The position numbers were made by a program, and so were the translations under genes. A stretch of DNA of 64,000 nucleotides from a bacterium (GTDB lineage Bacteria; Planctomycetota; Planctomycetia; Planctomycetales; Planctomycetaceae). The first letter of the stretch is position 1; every line of letters starts with the position of its first letter. The DNA is taken from contig WGMU01000001.1 in the NCBI GenBank assembly GCA_016124895.1, positions 1 through 64,000 of the forward strand. Direction: 5' to 3'. Shown one piece after another: positions 17,951 to 50,946 of the stretch. Below the pieces are notes generated by a model, which searched no databases, was not told where the DNA came from, and saw only the letters and a list, made by a program, of their open reading frames with translations.

Positions 17951-19273
17951 ATGCCCTCACTTATCAAAGAGCCGAACGGGCGAAAGACGATTCAGGTGAA
18001 CGAGCTGTCGGAACCCTTCAACAGACCGAAGGTCCGGCTTGGGAAGTGTTCGCTCCGAATTGCCGAAAAGGCGAAGGGATTCGTCGAGGAACTCGTGACC
18101 TGCAGCCAGAAGGGGTTGCAGCGCAGTCCTGAGCTGAAGCTGTGGCTCGACAGCCTGAGCGATGAACTGCACGACCGTCTGGCGATGCTGGGGTTGCTTG
18201 AACAACGGGCGAAGTCGGCGCTGGCGGGATTTCTCAACCGCTATCTCGGTTCTCGTTCTGATGTGAAGCCTGAGACGCTGCGTGCGTGGCGACAGGTTGC
18301 CGACCGACTGACGGCGACATTCGGGTCTGACTGCTCGCTTGGCGACGTCTCAGCAGAAATGGCGGCAGAGTGGCGGCAGTCACTGGTGAATGAGGAACTG
18401 GCCGACGCGACCGTCCGGAAATACACGGGCTACGCGAAGCATTTCTTCGCGGTCGCCGTTCGCCGGAAGCTGCTGTCAGAGAATCCGTTCGCGGAACTGA
18501 TTTCTGGTTCGGTTGGTAATGACGAACGCCAGACGGAAGTGACACGGGAAGAAACAAAGCGGCTGATCGACGCGTGCCCCGACGCGGAACTACGGCTGAT
18601 CGTGGCATTGAGCCGCTACGGTGGTCTGCGTTGCCCCAGCGAGCACCGCCTGCTGCGCTGGTCTGACATCGATTGGGCAAACGACCTGATGACGGTTCGC
18701 AGTCCGAAGACTCAGAAGCAGGGCAAGCAGAGCCGGCTGGTGCCGGTCTTCGATGAACTGCGGCCCCACCTGCTCGACGCGGCAGAGTTGAATGACACTG
18801 GCTCAGAGTTCGTGCTCAGGAAGTACCGCAGCGAAAACGGAGCGTACCTGCGAAAGCGGCTGGAGAAGATTCGAGAGCGAGCCGGGCTGCGAGCGTGGCC
18901 ACGAATCACGCACAACCTGCGAGCATCCAGGCAGACAGAACTGGCTCGTGAGAACCCAATGCACATCGTCTGCGCGATTATGGGCAACACGCCGAAAGTC
19001 GCTCACCGCCACTACATCCAGGTGTCGCAGGCCGACATTCTGAAGGCTGCCGGCAAGGCGGTGCAGAATGCGGTGCAGTACGCGCCAGAACCGGGCAGAT
19101 TGGTGCCGCAACCGGCCTCAGCCGAGACAAGGGCAGAACAGGCACAACTCTCGACCGCACAGCCTGTTACTGCACGGTGCGAGAGTCTGCGTCAGAGCGG
19201 TCAAAACCGCTCAGCGGGAGTGGATGGGAATCGAACCCACCAAACCCCTTTTCAGGGGTTTCACCGGGTTTGA
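17951..19273 (+). CDS. Tyrosine recombinase (integrase B) whose C-terminus is encoded antisense to selC
   Basis: A 440-residue integrase. The core-binding part spans about residues 75-185. The catalytic domain has Arg-226 in 'YGGLRCPSEHRLLRW', 'THNLRASRQTEL' (variant of H-x-x-R-H) and the nucleophile Tyr-355 in 'HRHYIQVSQ'. The second His of the canonical box is replaced, as is common in this planctomycete group. The last ~20 codons cross the att core and run into the tRNA-Sec gene, stopping at 19271-19273, so part of the C-terminus exists only in the integrated state. It is the integrase of element B. Confidence 0.9.
   Translation: MPSLIKEPNGRKTIQVNELSEPFNRPKVRLGKCSLRIAEKAKGFVEELVTCSQKGLQRSPELKLWLDSLSDELHDRLAMLGLLEQRAKSALAGFLNRYLGSRSDVKPETLRAWRQVADRLTATFGSDCSLGDVSAEMAAEWRQSLVNEELADATVRKYTGYAKHFFAVAVRRKLLSENPFAELISGSVGNDERQTEVTREETKRLIDACPDAELRLIVALSRYGGLRCPSEHRLLRWSDIDWANDLMTVRSPKTQKQGKQSRLVPVFDELRPHLLDAAELNDTGSEFVLRKYRSENGAYLRKRLEKIRERAGLRAWPRITHNLRASRQTELARENPMHIVCAIMGNTPKVAHRHYIQVSQADILKAAGKAVQNAVQYAPEPGRLVPQPASAETRAEQAQLSTAQPVTARCESLRQSGQNRSAGVDGNRTHQTPFQGFHRV
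19213..19236. repeat. att copy overlapping the selC 3' end
   Basis: The 24 bases are identical to 8040-8063 and include the tRNA 3' acceptor strand and T-arm. This is the tRNA-side junction of element B. Confidence 0.85.
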
Positions 19274-19308
19274 AGCCCGGGGCGGTCACCAGAGCCGCGT
19301 ACACTCCC
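19215..19308 (-). tRNA. selC: Selenocysteine tRNA (anticodon UCA)
   Basis: Read on the minus strand: acceptor GGGAGTG / CACTCCC, anticodon stem-loop ccggg-CTTCAAA-cccgg with UCA at 19271-19273, a long variable arm (aaacccc tgaa aggggttt region) and T-arm with GTTCGATTC. The 94-nt length, long variable arm and UCA anticodon identify tRNA-Sec. The 3' terminal half is reconstituted by element B. A small hairpin (GAGCGGT/ACCGCTC, 19196-19213) lies just downstream in tRNA orientation and may act as a new terminator. CCA is not encoded. Confidence 0.92.
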
Positions 19309-41132: not shown

Positions 41133-42515
41133 TCACAGCATCGCTCGACGGCGCACTTCGTCGAAGCTGGATTCTGCGGTGATCGCGCCGTCGCGAAAGA
41201 CCTCGACCAGTTCGTTGGGCTCATGCGGGCGGCAGTCGCTCTCCTGCACTGTGACAAGTTGGCCGGACCGCTTCACAAGAGCCAGCCGGCCACGCTTGGA
41301 TTGCTTTCCGGGGTCTGTAACCGGCTGTTTGAAGACGTCTCGCTTGACACTGTCAACGACGACAGAAGCGCATTTGAAGGCGTATTTCGACGTGTCGCGG
41401 TTCAGCTTCTGCAGCAGGCCGCCGCCCGAGCCGAACGCGACGTTGTCAGTCGACCATCCTGAGGTTTCCGTGGCCGCGAGGATTTCGCTCAGCATCTCTC
41501 GGTCGATTCCGTCGCCCTGAATGACTCGGACTTTCGAGTTCAGCACACGGTAGCCTTTGCTGTTGGTTTCCGTGCCGAACGCCTCGCCCAGCAGTTCGAG
41601 GACTCTGACGACGACGTCGGGCGGATGACCTGAGTCCGGGCGAACGACCAGGACTCCGTCGCGAGCGAGCACCTGGTGCTTCAGTTCGCCTCCCCACAGG
41701 TTCCGGCAGGCGTGGAAGATGTCGTACGAATCGCTGACGACGGCGACTGGCCCGGTCGGAAACTGCGTCAGCATGTTCCGCATGGCGTCAACTTCGTGGT
41801 CGCGGCCCCACGAATTCTGAGTGCTGTGTTCAGCCGCCGGAATGGAATGGCCCGCCATCGGGCAGCCGTAGAAGTCCCGAGCGACGCGAATGCCGGCCAG
41901 CGTGTCCGTGCCGCGAAAACTGATGAGATGCGCTGCGCTCCCGACACCCGCCGTTTCAACAGATGACACGCCACGGTAACCAAAATCGTGCAGCTTGAAA
42001 TCGACGAGTGACGGATCACCGGTCCGTTCCAGAGATTCGAGCAGCGTCCGTTTCATCTCCCGCGACTGAGTGGCTACTGTCGAGCCGTACCACACCTGCA
42101 CGAGCAGCGTCTCGAGATAGTTGGTCAGCCAGAAGCAGTCCGGATCGGTATTCTCGACCGTCATCAGGACATTGCTCACCGGCGCGACAGTCCCCTCAGG
42201 AACAGCCCGGATTACAACCGGCAGCCGCCCGCCGTGCCGCTCGAGAATCAGTTCCCAGCCAGCTCGATGAAACAGCCCTGCATCTCCGAAATGCAGCGCG
42301 AACAGATCAGCCGCTTCGTCAATCCGCTCCTGCGTGACGACCGTCCCGGCCAGGTATTGCTTGAGGTAATACTGCAGCCCGAAAAACACAGTCTCGGGGA
42401 AGACGCCACCGCGCGATTCAAAGTACGAATAGACGTTCTGTGTTCCCGGTGGATACTGCCGGTGATGCGACACCTTGTAGCTGTCAGTCAGCAGGAGGAT
42501 GTTCGAGGAACTCAT
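41133..42515 (-). CDS. nadV: Nicotinamide phosphoribosyltransferase (NAMPT/NadV)
   Basis: A 460-residue enzyme joining nicotinamide and PRPP to NMN in NAD salvage. Family signatures are present: N-terminal 'LLTDSYKVSHHRQYPPGTQN', 'YSYFESRGG', 'FKLHDFGYRGVSS', the active-site His in 'IPAAEHSTQNSWG' (~228) and the Asp in 'VVRPDSGHPPDVV' (~292), with length close to human NAMPT. ATG 42515 begins right at the conserved N-terminus; an upstream extension to 42620 is non-homologous and overlaps the integrase fragment. It is a chromosomal housekeeping gene or a mobile NadV copy. The nearby mobile debris makes both possible. Confidence 0.92.
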   Translation of the reverse strand: MSSSNILLLTDSYKVSHHRQYPPGTQNVYSYFESRGGVFPETVFFGLQYYLKQYLAGTVVTQERIDEAADLFALHFGDAGLFHRAGWELILERHGGRLPVVIRAVPEGTVAPVSNVLMTVENTDPDCFWLTNYLETLLVQVWYGSTVATQSREMKRTLLESLERTGDPSLVDFKLHDFGYRGVSSVETAGVGSAAHLISFRGTDTLAGIRVARDFYGCPMAGHSIPAAEHSTQNSWGRDHEVDAMRNMLTQFPTGPVAVVSDSYDIFHACRNLWGGELKHQVLARDGVLVVRPDSGHPPDVVVRVLELLGEAFGTETNSKGYRVLNSKVRVIQGDGIDREMLSEILAATETSGWSTDNVAFGSGGGLLQKLNRDTSKYAFKCASVVVDSVKRDVFKQPVTDPGKQSKRGRLALVKRSGQLVTVQESDCRPHEPNELVEVFRDGAITAESSFDEVRRRAML

Positions 42516-42618
42516 CGCAATGTGCTCAACGAAGGGAACGGAGCAGAGCGGAACTTTACGGAGTTCGACCTGGCAGCGAGACGGCAAACCTGCGGAAAAA
42601 GTTCTGCGACCGCAGTTC

Positions 42619-43521
42619 ATGTCTGAGCAGGAATGCCGACTGATCTACGGCATTACACCCAGCAATGCCCGGTTGCTCGACCAGATGATGGTCCTGAACG
42701 GCGGCAACAGTCTCGACGATTTCAGCAGGCTACTGGCCTCCACTGCCGAGGGAAATCCGTTTCGTGGCCTGACCGGTCAAGATCGAGTGGTGCTCTACCT
42801 GACCGCCGTCAGTACCGGGTTTCGCGCGTCCGAGCTGGCGAGCCTGACAATCAGTTCCTTCGACCTTGATGCTGAGACGCCGACGATCACGGTTCAGGCC
42901 GCGTACTCGAAGCGCCGCCGAACCGACACGCGGCCGCTGCGGGCAGAGCTCGCCGCGATGTTTCGAGACTACTTTGACGCTCTCGCAGACACTCGCCAGG
43001 GCGATCTGATTCCGATCAGAAGTAAGCGGCTGGTCTGGCCGGGAACGTGGCCGCAGAAAGCGTCCGTGATGGTCAGGACTGACCAGGAAGCCGCTGACGT
43101 GTCCTACCGTGACGAGCATGACCGCGTCCTGGACTTCCACGGCCTGCGGCACACATTCGGAACGAACCTCGCGAAAGCCGGCATCAGTCCGAAAGTCGCC
43201 CAGGAACTAATGCGGCACAGCGACGGGAACCTGACGCTCAACACGTACAGTCACGTCGGTCTGCATGACCTCGCTGGAGCCGTCGAACAACTGCCGCCGG
43301 TTCCGTACGCAGTTCCAGAAGTCGCAACTGGAACAAGCCCCGACGCCGTGTTCGCATTCAAGCCAGAGGAAACAGGCAATTATCAGGAGTTATCAGCAGT
43401 GACGGGCGATCAGATGGCCCGTCGGGCGCCGGATGCAGAAGAGCAACAAGGCGGCTCATCGCATTCGCGCCACGATCCGTTCGTGGCGTCTGGGCGCGAC
43501 CCGCAGCAATCAGAGCCTTGA
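42619..43521 (+). CDS. Truncated tyrosine recombinase (catalytic domain only)
   Basis: A 300-residue protein. From about residue 45 it is an integrase catalytic domain: 'VLYLTAVSTGFRASELASLT' (Arg), 'DFHGLRHTFGTNLAKAG' (His-Arg-His) and the nucleophile Tyr in 'LTLNTYSHVGLHD', all intact. The normal N-terminal arm/core-binding domains are missing; the first ~40 residues ('SEQECRLIYGITPSNARLL') do not look like integrase and may be foreign. The start is divergent from nadV with about 100 bases between. It is probably a fragment that cannot recognise att arms, and part of the mobile debris with the group II introns. Confidence 0.72.
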   Translation: MSEQECRLIYGITPSNARLLDQMMVLNGGNSLDDFSRLLASTAEGNPFRGLTGQDRVVLYLTAVSTGFRASELASLTISSFDLDAETPTITVQAAYSKRRRTDTRPLRAELAAMFRDYFDALADTRQGDLIPIRSKRLVWPGTWPQKASVMVRTDQEAADVSYRDEHDRVLDFHGLRHTFGTNLAKAGISPKVAQELMRHSDGNLTLNTYSHVGLHDLAGAVEQLPPVPYAVPEVATGTSPDAVFAFKPEETGNYQELSAVTGDQMARRAPDAEEQQGGSSHSRHDPFVASGRDPQQSEP

Positions 43522-43529
43522 AGAGGTCG

Positions 43530-43850
43530 CGAGGTTCGTCAATCCGTACGTACGTACGCCGGCTGGATGAACTACTACGGTCGATATTACAAATCGGCTC
43601 TCACCCCGGTGCTGCGCTGCCTGGAACGCTCTCTCGTGTACTGGGTACGCCGCAAGTTCAAACGATTCCGCCGTCATCAACGGCAGGCCGTTCACTGGCT
43701 GGGCCAGGTGTCCCGCCGGGGACCTGATCTGTTCGAGATGTGGCGGATTGGAATTCGACCAGCGGCTGGGCAATAGGAGCCGGATGAGTCGAGAGATTCA
43801 CGTCCGGTTCTGTGAGGGCCTGGGGGTGAGACTCACCCGGGCTACTCGAC
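43530..43850 (+). mobile_element. Group II intron 3' end, inner copy (maturase C-terminus, domains V and VI)
   Basis: The frame 'MNYYGRYYKSALTPVLRCLE', 'LVYWVRRKFKRFRRHQRQA', 'ISRRGPDLF'-like ending at 43776 is the X (maturase) domain of a group II intron RT. Directly after it, 43777-43810 is a perfect domain V (34 nt, GAGCCGGA/TCCGGTTC stem) and 43811-43850 a domain VI hairpin ending in ...CTCGAC. The RT domain and 5' half are missing. Confidence 0.83.
43777..43810 (+). ncRNA. Group II intron domain V (inner copy)
   Basis: 34 nt folding as an 8-bp lower stem GAGCCGGA/TCCGGTTC, an internal bulge and a short upper stem capped by a GAGA tetraloop. It is the catalytic hairpin of the ribozyme. 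Confidence 0.8.
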
Positions 43851-44356
43851 TTGTGATCCTGTGTCGCACGGCGTCGGAGGCTCAGCAGGCGCTGCGTCTG
43901 GTCACAGACTGGACACAGCAGAACGGCCTGACGCTGCATCCGACCAAAACGCAGGTTGTGGACGTGAACGAAACGGGCTTCGACTTTCTGGGTTACCACT
44001 TTCTCGGCGCCCGTCACTGGGTCAGCCAGAAGGCGGTTCGCACCGTGAAAGCGAAAATCCGCCAGCTTACTCCACGCAAGTCAGGAGTCAGCCTGGCCGT
44101 GACCATCACCCGGTTGAACTCCATGCTGAGCGGCTGGCTGAACTACTTTCAACACAGCCGTCCGTGGGCCTTTCCGCGACTGGATACCTTCATTCGGCAG
44201 CGGTTGCGCTCGATTGTGCGCTGTCGCAGCAAACGGAAAGGCTGCACGCGAAACGGTATGGACAATCTTCGATGGCCGAACGCCTTCTTTGCCAACCATG
44301 GGCTGCTGAATCTGGCCGCCGCCCATGCCACGGCCTGTCAATCCTCTCGCAGGTAA
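43851..44356 (+). pseudogene. Group II intron reverse transcriptase, C-terminal part (outer copy)
   Basis: The frame reads 'LVILCRTASEAQQALRLV', 'TDWTQQNGLTLHPTKTQVV', 'GFDFLGYHFLGARHW', 'LTRLNSMLSGWLNYFQHSRP' and 'FDTFIRQRLRSIVRCR'-like residues, the end of the RT palm, thumb and maturase domains of LtrA-type proteins. It begins exactly where the catalytic YADD motif would be ('YADD-LVILC'), directly after the 3' end of the inner intron. The N-terminal RT part is absent, so this copy is dead. Confidence 0.8.
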
Positions 44357-44370
44357 CATCATCAACCGGA

Positions 44371-44450
44371 GAGCCGTGTGCGGGAGACCCGCACGCACGG
44401 TTCGGAGGGAAGGGAGCCTGAAACCAATCAGGCTTCCTTATCCCTATCCC
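44371..44450 (+). ncRNA. Group II intron domains V and VI (outer copy)
   Basis: 44371-44403 folds as domain V (GAGCCG...CGGTTC stem with GTGCGGG/CCCGCAC upper part). About 44404-44450 contains the domain VI-like hairpin ('ggagcctgaaa...caggcttcc'). This is the 3' end of the outer intron. Confidence 0.75.
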
Positions 44451-45351: not shown

Positions 45352-48300
45352 TCAGACTCCGAGCAGTGCAGAATCGAGCGAGTCAGAAAATGCCTGGTCG
45401 ATCGTCTCCAGGTGCCTGCTTTCGCTCTCTTTTCGATCCTCTCTGTCCGAGTCGTCGGGACGCTTCGCGTCGTCATGAGTCTCTGACAGACTCGATCGAC
45501 AGCCAGTTGTTACGCCGACATCCGTGAGTGCCTGAGTGCGATGCTCGGCCGCGTCAGAGTTGCCTTCTGCGTTCCAGCCGGGTGACTCAATCGCGGCACT
45601 CCCCGAGGCAGACAGCGGCAAGGAGATGCTTCCCGCAGTATCTGACATCAGCAATCCGGGATCGGCGATTCCCTGAGGATTCCTGTTTTTTACCGCGAGC
45701 GCGAAGCTGGCGTCGGCGATTGCACCGCCGGAAGTTCGAATGGTAGCTCCGTCGTATTGAAAGACGCGGTCGGCTCGAGCGTCGACAATCCAGAGCCGTC
45801 CGGGATCCCGCGAATCGATCGTGATTCCGGTCGGCCGGCTGTTCGCTGGATCGATCGTCCAGTTCCCGGCCAGAACGCCGCGCATTGAATACTGAAAGAC
45901 CGCGTCGTGCTTGGCCGTGTCGTCGACCACCCAGAAACTGCTGCCGTCCGTGGTGATGCCCATTGGCTTCCGATCAGCGTGATCCAGTCGGAAGCTGGAC
46001 GTCGGACTGGCCTTACCGGACAACCGCAGCGCACCGTTCTCGAAGTAGAACACCTTGTGCGTGCCTCGATCGGCGATCCAGAGATCGTTGCCATGCACGG
46101 TGATCCCTTCCGGCTTGTCGACCCTTCTCGCTTCCCACGACCCGAGCAGCCGGTTGCTGGCATCGTAAACAAAGACCTCGCCCTTTTCGTCGACGACCCA
46201 GCGGGTCGAACCGTCAGCACTGGTGGCGACCCCTCGCGGCTTCGCGTCTTCTCTGTTGAGCCGCATGTCGAGCAGCGGATTTCCGGTCGAGTCATACTCG
46301 AACGTGCGCCGACGGGACTGATCGACGACGACGAACTTCGTCCCACCCGGTTCCTGGATTCTGTTGATCTGGATCGTGACCGTGACTGCTGCCGACGTCG
46401 TAACACCGTCACTGGCCGCATAAATAAAGCTGTCGGTCCCGGCAAACCCGGCATTCGGTGAATAGTTAAACGAGCCGTCGGGATTCAATGTCAGGGCACC
46501 GTTTGCGGTTCCGGTCACCAGAACTGCCGACAGACTGTCTCCGTCCACGTCAGTGTCGTTGCTCAGAACGCCGGCAGTCGGCACAGAGAGCGTCGAGTCC
46601 TGTACGACGGCGTAGCTGTCGACGGCCGCCACCGGTGCATCGTTGACAGGGTCGACGGTGATCATGACCGTCGCCGTGTTCGAGTCGAGCAGCCCGTCTT
46701 TGACGCCGTATGTGAAGCTGTCAGCGCCGTTGAAGTTGGCATTGGGCGTGTAGGTGAACGAGCCATCCGAGTTCAGCGTCAGAGACCCGTTCGTCGGACC
46801 GGAGACGAGGTACGCCGTCAGAGTGTTGCCATCTGGATCGCTGTCGTTGCCAAGCAGCCCCGGTGCTGACACCTTGAGCGTGGCGTCTTCGTCCGTCACG
46901 TAAGTATCGTCGAATGCCTCCGGTGCGTGATTAACCGACGTAACGTCAATCGTGACAGTGGCGACGTTCGACTCAAGCAGCCCGTCGCTGGCGGCGTAGG
47001 TAAAACTGTCCGAACCGCTGAATCCAGAGTTCGGTGTGTAAGTCAGCGAGCCATCGGAGTTCAGCGTGAGTGAGCCATTGGCTGGACCGCTGACAAGCGT
47101 CGCGGTCAGAGTGTCGCCGTCGGGATCGCTGTCGTTGCCGAGCAGTCCCGGAGCGGAAACCGTCAGCACGACATCTTCGCTTGTCGAAAAGCCATCGTCA
47201 GCCGCCACTGGTGCGTCATTGACCGGTACCACGTAAAGCGTGACGACAGTGATGCTCGAACTGGACTGCCCGTCGCTGACGACGTAACTGAACTGGTCCG
47301 AGCCGTAGAAGTCGGCATCGGGCGTGTAGAGAAACGACCCGTCGGCATTAAGGGTCAGGGCGCCACTGGCCGGGCTGGTGAAGAGGCCTGCGGTCAGAAC
47401 ATCCCCGTCAGCGTCGGTGTCGTTTCCGAGGACTCCCGGAGCCGAGACAACCAGCGTGACGTCTTCGTCGGTCGTGTATTGCTCGGCCGTCGCAACAGGC
47501 GCATCGTTAACAGGCGTAATGGTGATGGTGAATGTCTGCGGGGAGCTGATATCCGCTCCTCCACCCACCGTGCCGCCGTCATCGTGAAGCTGGACCGCGA
47601 CGGTCGCAGTCCCGAACGCATTCGCTGCTGAAGTGAAGGTCAGCGTTCCGTCGGCAGAGATCGCCGGAGCAATGTCAAACAGCGCCGGGTTGTCGTTGCT
47701 GACGAGAAAGTCGACGAACTGGCTCGATTCACTCGCCGGGCCGGCGCTGATGTTCGTGGCCCAGGCAGTCAGAGTCTGCGCGCCTGCATCTTCGCTGACG
47801 ACGACGTCAGCACCGACCGTAAAACTCGGCGCTGTGTTGGGTACGACACCGATCGCCTGCTGGCTGCCAAAGTCCACGCTCTGACTGATCTGGCCGTCGA
47901 GGCAGTCTTCAAACTCGTAGCCGTCCCCAGCGATTGGAGTTCCGAGGACGACCGGAAGCGAGCCCAGCACGACATCGGTCCCCTCGCGGACGAACTGCAG
48001 ATCGAAGCGGTGCGGGCGGCCATCGCCAGTGAACGTGACATCGAACGTCGCCGTGTCGCCGGCTCCCAGGCCGTTGATCACACCTGGAGAGAAGCCGATG
48101 TGAACGCGCGGGTCGGACGCTCGCAGCGTCACGTTCACATTGACCGATGTGACCGCACTGTCGATTGCAGCGACGATCCCATCGGCGATATTACCGACGA
48201 GCGGGTCGCCGCCACTGCCGATCTTGAAGTAGAACGGGTCACCCGGAGCGATCGGATCCGCAGTCCCGTTGGCGATGGTTGTCGTCGTTTGATTGGTCGC

Positions 48301-50946
48301 GCCGGTCAGAGTCGCAAGTGCTTCCAGCCCGATCCGCGGATCCTGTGTGGCGGCATCGTTCGTGCCCAGTCCGATGACCAGCGCCCCCAGCGCGTTGAGC
48401 CCTGTCACAGTGTCCTGAATGGTGGCGCCGCTGTTGAAGGGCGTGGTTCCGCGGCCGCTGGTCGTGATACCTGAAGCCGGGACAGTCAGGCCGCCGACGC
48501 CAGTGATGCTGGTCGCCCCGTCTGCCTGATACGCGAATCCAACGTCCGTCGCCGTGATAATGATCGGCAGAGCACCCGAACGGAATCCGGCACCGCCAAT
48601 CGTCCCGGACGGATCCAGCACGCCATTCGCCGGGTCCGCGGTAAACGACGCGAACGCGGGAACGTCGCCACTGCTACCGGGGGTGACCTGAGTTGACGCC
48701 AGCCCGGCGGCTCCGCTGTCGAGCACCGAGCCGTTGTTGTTTCCGTCAAATCCAGCGCCGGTCACCATCTGATAGAGAGCTTCAATCACCGTTTCGGGGG
48801 CGTCGCCGCCATAACCCGGAGCGACGCGGTCCAGGGCCGCCTGGATCGACGCCAGCACTTCCGCATCTGTGTAACGAGTGTCGCTCGCCGCAATGATCGG
48901 CTGGTTCAAAATGAAGGGGCGGCCGCTCGAATACTCGGATGCAAAGTTGGCGTACTCTTCCAGACGCCCGACACCGAAGCCCAGATCGATTCCCGGCAGC
49001 CGCGTCTGCAGTTGAGAAATGATGTTGGGAAACGCGGCGCGGACGATCGGGCTGTTCGATGTGAAACTGCCGGTATCGTCAAAGAGCAGAAACACGTCGA
49101 CCATGCTTGTCAGTGCGCCGGTTGTCGGCAGAGTCAGACTGACGGTCTGCGTATAAGTGTCTCCCTCGGCCAGCGACGTTTGAATCAGCGACGGCGTGAC
49201 GTTTCCCACCGGAGCGTTGCTGACGCCGCCCGGCCACAGGATCCCGCCAACCGTTTCTGGAAACGTCTGCACAAAGCCAGTGGGGACGACTTCGCGGACC
49301 ACGTAGGCACCCGCAGCCAGACCGGTGAAAGAATACGAACCATCGGCCAGTGTCAGTGTCGTCGGCTCGCCGGGCTCCAGCACATTGTCGCGGTTCAGAT
49401 CGAGGAAGATCGTCACGCCTTCGACGCCGGGCTCGCCGGCATCACGGACGTGATTGCCGTTGAGGTCTTCAAATTTGACGCCGTGAATTTCGCTGGGGCG
49501 ATACTGGTCTCCGCCATCGACGTTACTGAGGTCGTCGGCCGGTCCCACCGTGACGGGCTTTGCACTTTCAGAGGTCGGCGTCGAACCGAGTTCCGCAGGT
49601 ACAATCTGGCGCACCGTGTAGGTGCCGGCGGCCAGCTTCTCAAAGCGGTACTGCCCCGCTTCGTCAATGTCCGGCGTGTAAAAGAGATCGCCGCCCGTCA
49701 CGACACTCGGCTCGCCAGCGTCGAGTGCCCCGTTGTTGTTCCTGTCGAGGTAGACGGTAATCCCTGCCAGACCTTCTTCGCCGGGATTGCGGACTCCGTT
49801 CCGGTCGCGGTCAACGTAAATCACGCCGCCAATCGCCGCGTCCGTCCGTTGCAGATTTCCGAAGTTGACGTTGTTCAGCGGGCTTCCTGAGATCAGCGTG
49901 ACGTTCTGGTAGCCCGCGACCGGCGAGGTCGGCCGGTACGAGATCGGCGTTTGCTCGGCGATCCGGACATTCCCTGCCTCGACGCCGACGATCGAATAGC
50001 TGCCATTGCTGGCCGTCGTTCCAAACGGTTCGCCAGTGTCACGGACATTGTTGAGGTTCAGGTCGGCGTAGACAGTCCAGCCACCGAGACCCGACTCGCC
50101 TGTGTCCTGCAGACCGTTGCCGTTGATGTCGTTAAAGACGCGACCGCTGATCGATGTCAGCTTGTCTGGATCCGGCCAGTTCGAGAAGTCGGGCATGACG
50201 GTCGTCTGCCCCTCGACGACTTCAGCGGTGTAGTTAATGTCTTTCGGCTCCCAGCCCGTCGGCACAACCTCAGTGACTTCGTAACTGAGACTGTTGCCCG
50301 CTCCGCCGCCGAGGATTCCCGTAAACGTGTAGTCCCCATTGCCGTCGGTCAGTTCAAACGGCTCGTCCGAATCCAGCGTCCCGTTGCCGTTGATATCCAG
50401 AAAGATGGTCCAGCCGGCAAGACCAGTGTCTTCGGGATCCCGGACAGTGTCGTTGTTGATGTCCCGCCAGACGGTCCCGGTAATGACTCCCGTGCCGCCC
50501 GTGCCTTCGTTCAGAAAATCGACGCGCTGACTCTGACCATCGAGTAGCGTCACGTCGGTGTAGCCAGTCACTGGATTCGTCGGTGTCCAGCCTGACCGGA
50601 CGACTTCCGCGACGCGATAGTCGCCAGCGGCAAGGCCATTGAAGCTGAATTTCCCGTCGGCGTCGGTGACCATCGATGCTTCCCCGGCGTCGAGCGAACC
50701 GTTCTGGTTCTGGTCGAGGAAGACAGTCCAGTTGGCCAGTCCGGCTTCACCCTGATCTCGAACCCCGTTGGCATTCAGATCTTGGTACAGCGTCCCCGTT
50801 ATCTGAGCGGCCAGCAGCGTCCTCAGTTCCAGTTGTTCAATAAGTGTCCCGGATTCTCTGCGGCGGCGCCACGTTCCCGGCCGTTCCTTGACGGTCTGCT
50901 GGAAACTGGTCTGGCTCCATCGGCGAATCAGATTGGAGATCAACAT
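45352..50946 (-). CDS. Giant secreted repeat protein (SdrD_B-like, VWA-like, cadherin-like, NHL-like)
   Basis: 1864 residues. The N-terminus ends in 'IEQLELRTLLA', the planctomycete LEPR-type sorting signal. Five SdrD_B-like repeats (about residues 48-590, each 'G.v..D.N.NG..D.gE.Gl.g..v.lD') follow, then a VWA/integrin-like region (about 615-1000, 'VDVFLLFDDTGSF'), then about five tandem ~96-residue cadherin-like repeats (about 1130-1545, 'N.APvA.dD.y.t.ED..l.v...G.LgND.D'), then an NHL-like C-terminal region ('WVVDEKGEVFVYDA'). The Asp-rich repeats bind Ca2+. It is probably a cell-surface adhesion protein. Confidence 0.87.
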   Translation of the reverse strand: MLISNLIRRWSQTSFQQTVKERPGTWRRRRESGTLIEQLELRTLLAAQITGTLYQDLNANGVRDQGEAGLANWTVFLDQNQNGSLDAGEASMVTDADGKFSFNGLAAGDYRVAEVVRSGWTPTNPVTGYTDVTLLDGQSQRVDFLNEGTGGTGVITGTVWRDINNDTVRDPEDTGLAGWTIFLDINGNGTLDSDEPFELTDGNGDYTFTGILGGGAGNSLSYEVTEVVPTGWEPKDINYTAEVVEGQTTVMPDFSNWPDPDKLTSISGRVFNDINGNGLQDTGESGLGGWTVYADLNLNNVRDTGEPFGTTASNGSYSIVGVEAGNVRIAEQTPISYRPTSPVAGYQNVTLISGSPLNNVNFGNLQRTDAAIGGVIYVDRDRNGVRNPGEEGLAGITVYLDRNNNGALDAGEPSVVTGGDLFYTPDIDEAGQYRFEKLAAGTYTVRQIVPAELGSTPTSESAKPVTVGPADDLSNVDGGDQYRPSEIHGVKFEDLNGNHVRDAGEPGVEGVTIFLDLNRDNVLEPGEPTTLTLADGSYSFTGLAAGAYVVREVVPTGFVQTFPETVGGILWPGGVSNAPVGNVTPSLIQTSLAEGDTYTQTVSLTLPTTGALTSMVDVFLLFDDTGSFTSNSPIVRAAFPNIISQLQTRLPGIDLGFGVGRLEEYANFASEYSSGRPFILNQPIIAASDTRYTDAEVLASIQAALDRVAPGYGGDAPETVIEALYQMVTGAGFDGNNNGSVLDSGAAGLASTQVTPGSSGDVPAFASFTADPANGVLDPSGTIGGAGFRSGALPIIITATDVGFAYQADGATSITGVGGLTVPASGITTSGRGTTPFNSGATIQDTVTGLNALGALVIGLGTNDAATQDPRIGLEALATLTGATNQTTTTIANGTADPIAPGDPFYFKIGSGGDPLVGNIADGIVAAIDSAVTSVNVNVTLRASDPRVHIGFSPGVINGLGAGDTATFDVTFTGDGRPHRFDLQFVREGTDVVLGSLPVVLGTPIAGDGYEFEDCLDGQISQSVDFGSQQAIGVVPNTAPSFTVGADVVVSEDAGAQTLTAWATNISAGPASESSQFVDFLVSNDNPALFDIAPAISADGTLTFTSAANAFGTATVAVQLHDDGGTVGGGADISSPQTFTITITPVNDAPVATAEQYTTDEDVTLVVSAPGVLGNDTDADGDVLTAGLFTSPASGALTLNADGSFLYTPDADFYGSDQFSYVVSDGQSSSSITVVTLYVVPVNDAPVAADDGFSTSEDVVLTVSAPGLLGNDSDPDGDTLTATLVSGPANGSLTLNSDGSLTYTPNSGFSGSDSFTYAASDGLLESNVATVTIDVTSVNHAPEAFDDTYVTDEDATLKVSAPGLLGNDSDPDGNTLTAYLVSGPTNGSLTLNSDGSFTYTPNANFNGADSFTYGVKDGLLDSNTATVMITVDPVNDAPVAAVDSYAVVQDSTLSVPTAGVLSNDTDVDGDSLSAVLVTGTANGALTLNPDGSFNYSPNAGFAGTDSFIYAASDGVTTSAAVTVTIQINRIQEPGGTKFVVVDQSRRRTFEYDSTGNPLLDMRLNREDAKPRGVATSADGSTRWVVDEKGEVFVYDASNRLLGSWEARRVDKPEGITVHGNDLWIADRGTHKVFYFENGALRLSGKASPTSSFRLDHADRKPMGITTDGSSFWVVDDTAKHDAVFQYSMRGVLAGNWTIDPANSRPTGITIDSRDPGRLWIVDARADRVFQYDGATIRTSGGAIADASFALAVKNRNPQGIADPGLLMSDTAGSISLPLSASGSAAIESPGWNAEGNSDAAEHRTQALTDVGVTTGCRSSLSETHDDAKRPDDSDREDRKESESRHLETIDQAFSDSLDSALLGV

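Follow-up and report, generated by a model that had tools for sequence, protein, structure and literature searches.

The stretch of DNA analyzed here (the window; 64,000 nucleotides) contains a fragment of a tyrosine recombinase gene followed by the 3′ parts of two group II introns, termed inner and outer below. The second part of the outer intron's reverse transcriptase (RT)/maturase gene lies between the two intron ends.

42499–43442, plus strand: tyrosine recombinase gene fragment (Pfam Phage_integrase); the homology stops at 43442 and the open reading frame (ORF) continues into intron sequence
43441–43442, no strand: breakpoint, a 2-bp overlap (GA) of the recombinase and inner-intron homologies seen from both alignments
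43441–43850, plus strand: what remains of the inner group II intron, its 3′-most ~405 nt out of ~1960
43442–43776, plus strand: C-terminal remnant of the inner maturase in two frames, 43442–43555 and 43561–43776 (tblastn with the intron proteins of loci L045, L056, L068, and L042)
43555–43559, plus strand: five extra bases, a TACG repeat, shifting the inner maturase frame (alignment to L058, L056, L068, and L047)
43775–43850, plus strand: inner domain V/VI and 3′ end, ...GGCTACTCGAC (Rfam RF00029, 60.6 bits against a gathering value of 40, E 1.9e-9)
43851–44356, plus strand: 3′ exon, the remainder of the outer RT/maturase ORF from base 2 of the codon after YADD (RVT_1 tail, GIIM)
44369–44447, plus strand: outer domain V/VI and 3′ end (RF00029, 54.7 bits, E 5.5e-8)

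An earlier note on this DNA had read the locus as one group II intron nested in another intron's RT gene at the YADD motif, and the two RF00029 matches in tandem, with the outer RT between them, bear this out. The inner piece had been given a start at 43530, which alignment to L058 moves to 43441. Over 410 aligned columns, the remnant is 88% identical in nucleotides to positions 1559–1963 of the full-length 1963-nt intron in L058, which comes from an uncultured Planctomyces MAG, and it is 72–76% identical to the introns in L056, L068, and L047. Domains I–IV and the 5′ GTGYG end, both kept in full-length relatives, are deleted. What is left of the inner protein is a frame-shifted C-terminus with a GIIM match at 43555–43683; the protein of the L068 relative scores 426 bits with NCBIfam group_II_RT_mat (cut-off 300).

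On the outer side, bases 43851–43852 complete the codon after YADD, the frame from 43853 reads VILCRTASEAQQAL..., and the stop lies at 44354–44356. This ORF matches GIIM above the cut-off (E 6e-17) and the final 50 positions of RVT_1, and it is 49% identical in amino acids to an intact RT on contig C43 of the same genome (G000:C43). The outer 3′ end is 82–84% identical in nucleotides to intron ends on C43 and C156. The outer maturase end and domain V/VI are therefore present as the earlier note had it, with the coordinates corrected from 44371–44450 to 44369–44447; the end at 44447 is that of the Rfam match, and the genome-mates share one further boundary base, C. The outer element has both a domain V/VI and an RT/maturase and is represented in the window by its 3′ part alone, on the 3′ side of the inner intron, while both sides are present in 15 related loci.

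The recombinase has a 93% identical DNA copy at G000:C90, and the match to it ends at 43442. Such a 2-bp overlap of two homologies resembles an illegitimate junction, and the sharpness of the boundary supports the earlier proposal that the 5′ halves were deleted. Because the inner remnant adjoins the recombinase fragment in this way, one rearrangement probably took away the 5′ part of both introns. No second copy of the inner remnant was found in the window's genome, and just the 3′ end of the outer piece is common to two other contigs, which makes a repeat-driven mis-assembly of the region unlikely.

Since the window has lost its 5′ side, the insertion point was read from full-length relatives of the inner intron. 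At YADD, such introns (1827–1963 nt) were found in 15 loci, L042, L046, L047, L050, L056, L058, L065, L068, L071, L073, L074, L075, L076, L098, and L101, which represent 12 distinct introns. One interrupted RT gene flanks each intron on both sides, and in all 15 loci the YADD codons and one further base precede the insertion. The upstream exon ends in TAYGCNGAYGAY and a final base that is T in 13 loci; the exceptions are L075 with A and L098 with G. The 3′ boundary is less sure in L101, where the intron end reads CTACTCGC and lacks the A that is present in the usual CTACTCGAC. When the intron is deleted in silico, the two RT parts come back into one frame, in which YADD is followed by F, L, Y, W, I, or V. 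This frame is 431–505 aa long in 12 loci; in L047 (292 aa), L058 (278 aa), and L075 (274 aa) it is shorter, interrupted by stops or by the end of the contig. In the window, the first base of the 3′ exon is the one that matches this insertion point. Thus, the junction at 43850/43851 stands insofar as the base after ...CTCGAC starts the outer RT, but the cut falls one base into the post-YADD codon and not between codons.

Relatives of the outer intron are uninterrupted at the same place. The relative at G000:C43 encodes an RT of 456 aa that reads YADDFVILCRS without a break and has the same ...CCCTATC boundary, on a contig that lacks its 5′ exon. A search with the outer RT matched 27 of the 297 genomes of the class, the window's own included, at E 1e-30 or better. 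Excluding the window, 16 of 19 loci are continuous through YADD by pattern, and the other three gave no pattern match. Thirteen of the 16 have T at −1 and so fit the target TAYGCNGAYGAYT. As these relatives read through YADD, the junction at 43850/43851 is not where an outer RT normally begins. Two 3′ ends that are normally adjacent, and an outer RT that starts elsewhere, were both looked for, and neither was seen.

The spread of the inner lineage was surveyed in several ways. In the 297 genomes of the class, a query of 43560–43920 gave 25 matches in 20 genomes, and seven of these (the window, L018, L019, L037, L020, L024, and L023) have post-YADD sequence of clearly different RTs directly after the intron end. 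L023 was rejected as a further copy: it is an inverted duplication around the domain VI hairpin without a 5′ exon, and it stands outside the counts of 15, 30, and 32 loci. Near position 1521, L023 has an inverted repeat of the domain VI end with inverted RT sequence on the far side, perhaps a fold-back or an assembly artefact.

Further searches were run because the class query held 70 exon bases. When 84,980 species genomes were scanned with a pattern made of the inner 3′ end and TNGT, 30 loci were found, 25 of them with a post-YADD RT 3′ exon at the same base (24 clear, and L063 with a probably frame-shifted RT), a fraction that overstates how often the lineage uses YADD because the pattern demanded TNGT in the 3′ exon. 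Four of the remaining five have an IS6-like transposase (L051, L052, L054, and L062), and L070 was not counted as either. An exon-free search of 392 genomes of the phylum with the L068 intron protein gave 25 matches in 19 genomes. Both junctions could be read for eight of these introns, of which four lie at YADD (L073, L074, L075, and L076) and the others in RT PQGG (L080), IS66-like (L077), IS3-like (L078), and unassigned (L079) sequence. The earlier note had asked whether the inner family always inserts at YADD; "always" would be too strong, both by these counts and in view of a copy in Singulisphaera described below. Among plasmids, 195 records matched; the eight loci read, from the 40 matches listed, comprise two at YADD (L098 and L101), two IS6-like, one IS3-like, one IS66-like (3′ side), and two in unassigned sequence. 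A single locus from a scan of viral contigs (L072) was set aside as a chance match, with no domain V called and a downstream reading that is not RT-like.

Counting the window, 32 loci carry the insertion at YADD, and their outer RTs form 26 distinct contexts at 80% identity. The hosts include Planctomycetota, Pseudomonadota, Desulfobacterota-type MAGs, a Spirochaetales MAG, a Bacteroidetes MAG, and plasmids of Bradyrhizobium and Sulfobacillus, although many of the records are MAGs, for which taxon labels can be wrong. Full-length relatives of the inner intron have a domain I of the Rfam D1D4-2 type. All seven inner introns with a domain I match belong to RF01999; the outer introns match RF02003, RF02012, or nothing, except that one plasmid-borne outer intron is also RF01999. 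By these comparisons, the YADD site is a habitual landing place for an intron lineage, not an accident.

Sister introns occupy conserved transposase motifs, WHLDE|V (IS6-like), KYADH|LPL (IS66-like), and W..DI|T (IS3-like), at L051, L100, and L105 (both sides), L052, L054, and L062 (3′ side), L077 and L104, and L078 and L099. The IS3, IS6, and IS66 labels for the interrupted genes are presumptive, being taken from protein motifs. A second RT motif also serves as a site, as L080 (~1060 and 2681) has a related intron inside the PQGG-coding sequence of another RT, GMPQ|GGVISPLL.

Pairing between the intron and its target would explain how the site is found. An alignment of domain I shows AGTCGTT in the loop at the EBS1 place for nine of ten distinct YADD introns and AATCGTT for L073; in the two plasmid YADD introns this loop is AGTCGTT (L098) and AGTCATT (L101). 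AGUCGUU pairs with GAYGAYT at −7 to −1, and a candidate EBS2, GCGTA, pairs with TAYGC, although both names rest on alignment place and pairing and were assigned from sequence, not from a solved structure. In apparently complete relatives, the RNA would find its DNA through 5′-AGUCGUU and probably also through 5′-GCGUA. The EBS1 bases opposite third codon positions (−2 and −5) are G, except for A at −2 in L073 and A at −5 in L101, and in the interrupted RT genes both C and T occur at each of these positions. Because G pairs with C and T, synonymous codons for the invariant Asp-Asp would stay recognizable in RT genes that differ greatly. In the window copy, the 5′ exon, domain I, and EBS are deleted, and its targeting is read from these relatives.

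Moreover, EBS1 changes with the target. At IS6-like sites, CTTCGTT matches GACGAAG, GATGAGG, or GACGAGG; at the IS66-like site, GGTGGTT matches GACCACC; at the IS3-like site, TGATGTT matches GACATTA; and GAGTCCG, CAACCCT, and CCCACTG match three unassigned sites. Some pairings are imperfect: L078 is an exception with 5/7 pairs at its IS3-like site, L073 and L101 have 6/7 pairs, and the −1 base is A or G in L075 and L098. Across 21 introns the own-pair EBS1–IBS1 score is 141/147, compared to 120 on average and at most 135 in 10,000 shuffles, where taking the best position in a loop of ≤24 bases inflates own and shuffled scores alike. The shuffles ignore shared ancestry, so the real evidence lies in the changes of EBS1 between target types. 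A reading as self-immunity, based on the lineage's own RTs having mostly a G-initial codon after YADD and no T at −1, was dropped because insertions occur at such sites in L098 (−1 G, where outer and inner RTs are of one kind) and in L075 (−1 A, with a lineage-like outer RT).

Singulisphaera acidiphila DSM 18658 has five complete twintrons at five places, with an outer intron of 1961 nt and an inner intron of 1944 nt. No differences separate the five inner introns, and the outers vary at seven positions; if changes were spread evenly over both introns, the chance that none of the seven would fall in the inner is ~0.008 (calculated by hand). All outer copies found in this genome carry the inner intron. 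The pattern fits a late invasion of already dispersed outer introns, or conversion. A sixth inner copy lies outside RT genes in a look-alike site, TTTGCCGACGACT/TGCGC, an argument that the intron would read DNA sequence and not the gene. A tree of 30 intron proteins places the YADD users with T at −1 in several clades, with five label changes compared to a shuffled mean of 10.3. IS6-like users are sister to L098, and IS3-like users group with L076 and L101, all three of which are YADD introns. This suggests that the lineage may have shifted from RT to IS targets, with mixed tree support and outgroups on long branches.

The window very probably holds a dead, 5′-truncated twintron, in which a YADD-homing intron entered the RT gene of an unrelated intron and what was left after a later rearrangement came to adjoin a recombinase gene. 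The inner group II intron would have retrohomed to one base past YADD, and its splicing would have restored the outer RT frame. The 5′ parts of both introns would then have been cut off, perhaps in a single deletion. The insertion point, the rejoined frames, and the EBS/IBS match with its change from target to target are visible in the sequences themselves.

Two independent 5′-truncated intron ends could instead lie side by side, with the YADD boundary matched by coincidence; truncated copies are common in bacteria according to the parts available of one account (PMC4424553), and the window has no 5′ exon. This is extremely improbable, however, given the same junction base in 31 other loci, 15 of which have both sides of one RT gene, and given the full-length relatives with an RT gene that continues on both sides. 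Incomplete reverse transcription could yield 5′-truncated copies, so the inner intron might have been short on arrival and not cut down later. This would predict the outer 5′ half just upstream, where the recombinase gene lies instead, and we regard such an origin as very unlikely. It is also unlikely, if somewhat less so, that the twintron is real but that one ancestral twintron, by descent or co-mobility, and not repeated homing, accounts for the shared site. The five near-identical Singulisphaera twintrons could have moved as a unit, but the outer RTs fall into 26 contexts, the outer intron types differ, and the uneven variation in Singulisphaera (0 inner against 7 outer sites, ~0.008) does not favor joint movement.

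Beyond the window, we favor, with some reserve, a broader interpretation: a cross-phylum intron lineage would parasitize other mobile elements through the DNA that encodes their most invariant residues. The main target would be RT YADD, whereas sister introns use RT PQGG and transposase motifs of the IS3-, IS6-, and IS66-like kinds. Guide bases opposite third codon positions appear mostly wobble-tolerant (G/Y, U/R), as read from a few guide sequences, so that synonymous drift would hardly remove the target, a changed amino acid would inactivate the host enzyme, and the host RT would depend on splicing by the parasite.

RmInt1 and its relatives are group II introns that home to insertion sequences, and they resemble the present lineage in being specialized on mobile-element genes. 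Unlike RmInt1, the main shared target here is the YADD codons of RTs, with the IS3-, IS6-, and IS66-like sites used by sister introns. Twintrons are known in bacteria and archaea from Thermosynechococcus, Methanosarcina, Trichodesmium, and Wolbachia (PMC2882425, PMC4424553, PMC4649490, PMC8919778). The closest parallel is TeI3/TeI4 of Thermosynechococcus elongatus, where repeated insertions of bacterial group II introns hit a single conserved site in the ORF of another intron and identical inners sit in diverged outers. As far as the available text goes, however, that site lies between two start codons, within one intron family, and the inners are ORF-less (PMC2882425), whereas the present inners carry their own RT and, across several phyla, use the RT catalytic-motif DNA of introns of differing types. 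In Methanosarcina acetivorans, nested introns likewise involve repeated site-specific homing into other group II introns, but the portion available names no catalytic-motif site (PMC4424553). The Trichodesmium twintron, a single bacterial case in which the inner intron was shown to splice first, has it in domain I of the host intron and not in an RT gene, according to the available part of that report (PMC4649490). Searches of the open-licence literature, and the available parts of the twintron papers, gave no account of homing to YADD-coding DNA. Thus, the window twintron is of a known kind, a degenerate group II twintron, while a lineage homing to RT catalytic-motif DNA was not found described there.

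An element that homes to the catalytic-motif DNA of its competitors would have a target that they can hardly mutate away. The five Singulisphaera twintrons are natural material for asking whether inner splicing controls outer mobility, and guide sequences matched to codon degeneracy are relevant to targetron design. In addition, such insertions would account for some intron RT genes annotated as two halves, e.g., in L098 and L101.

Some other features were observed in the window and its genome. A tRNA-Sec gene at 19216–19308 (minus strand) was found by both Rfam and ARAGORN, and the organism may make selenoproteins. A giant ORF of 1864 aa (45352–50946, minus strand) has many repeated stretches by eye. 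Two more domain V/VI matches occur in the same genome, G000:C182:40645-40769 (L012) and G000:C58:14388-14514 (L013); they span 125–127 bases compared to the 77 positions of the model, and that in L012 follows an RT reading frame.
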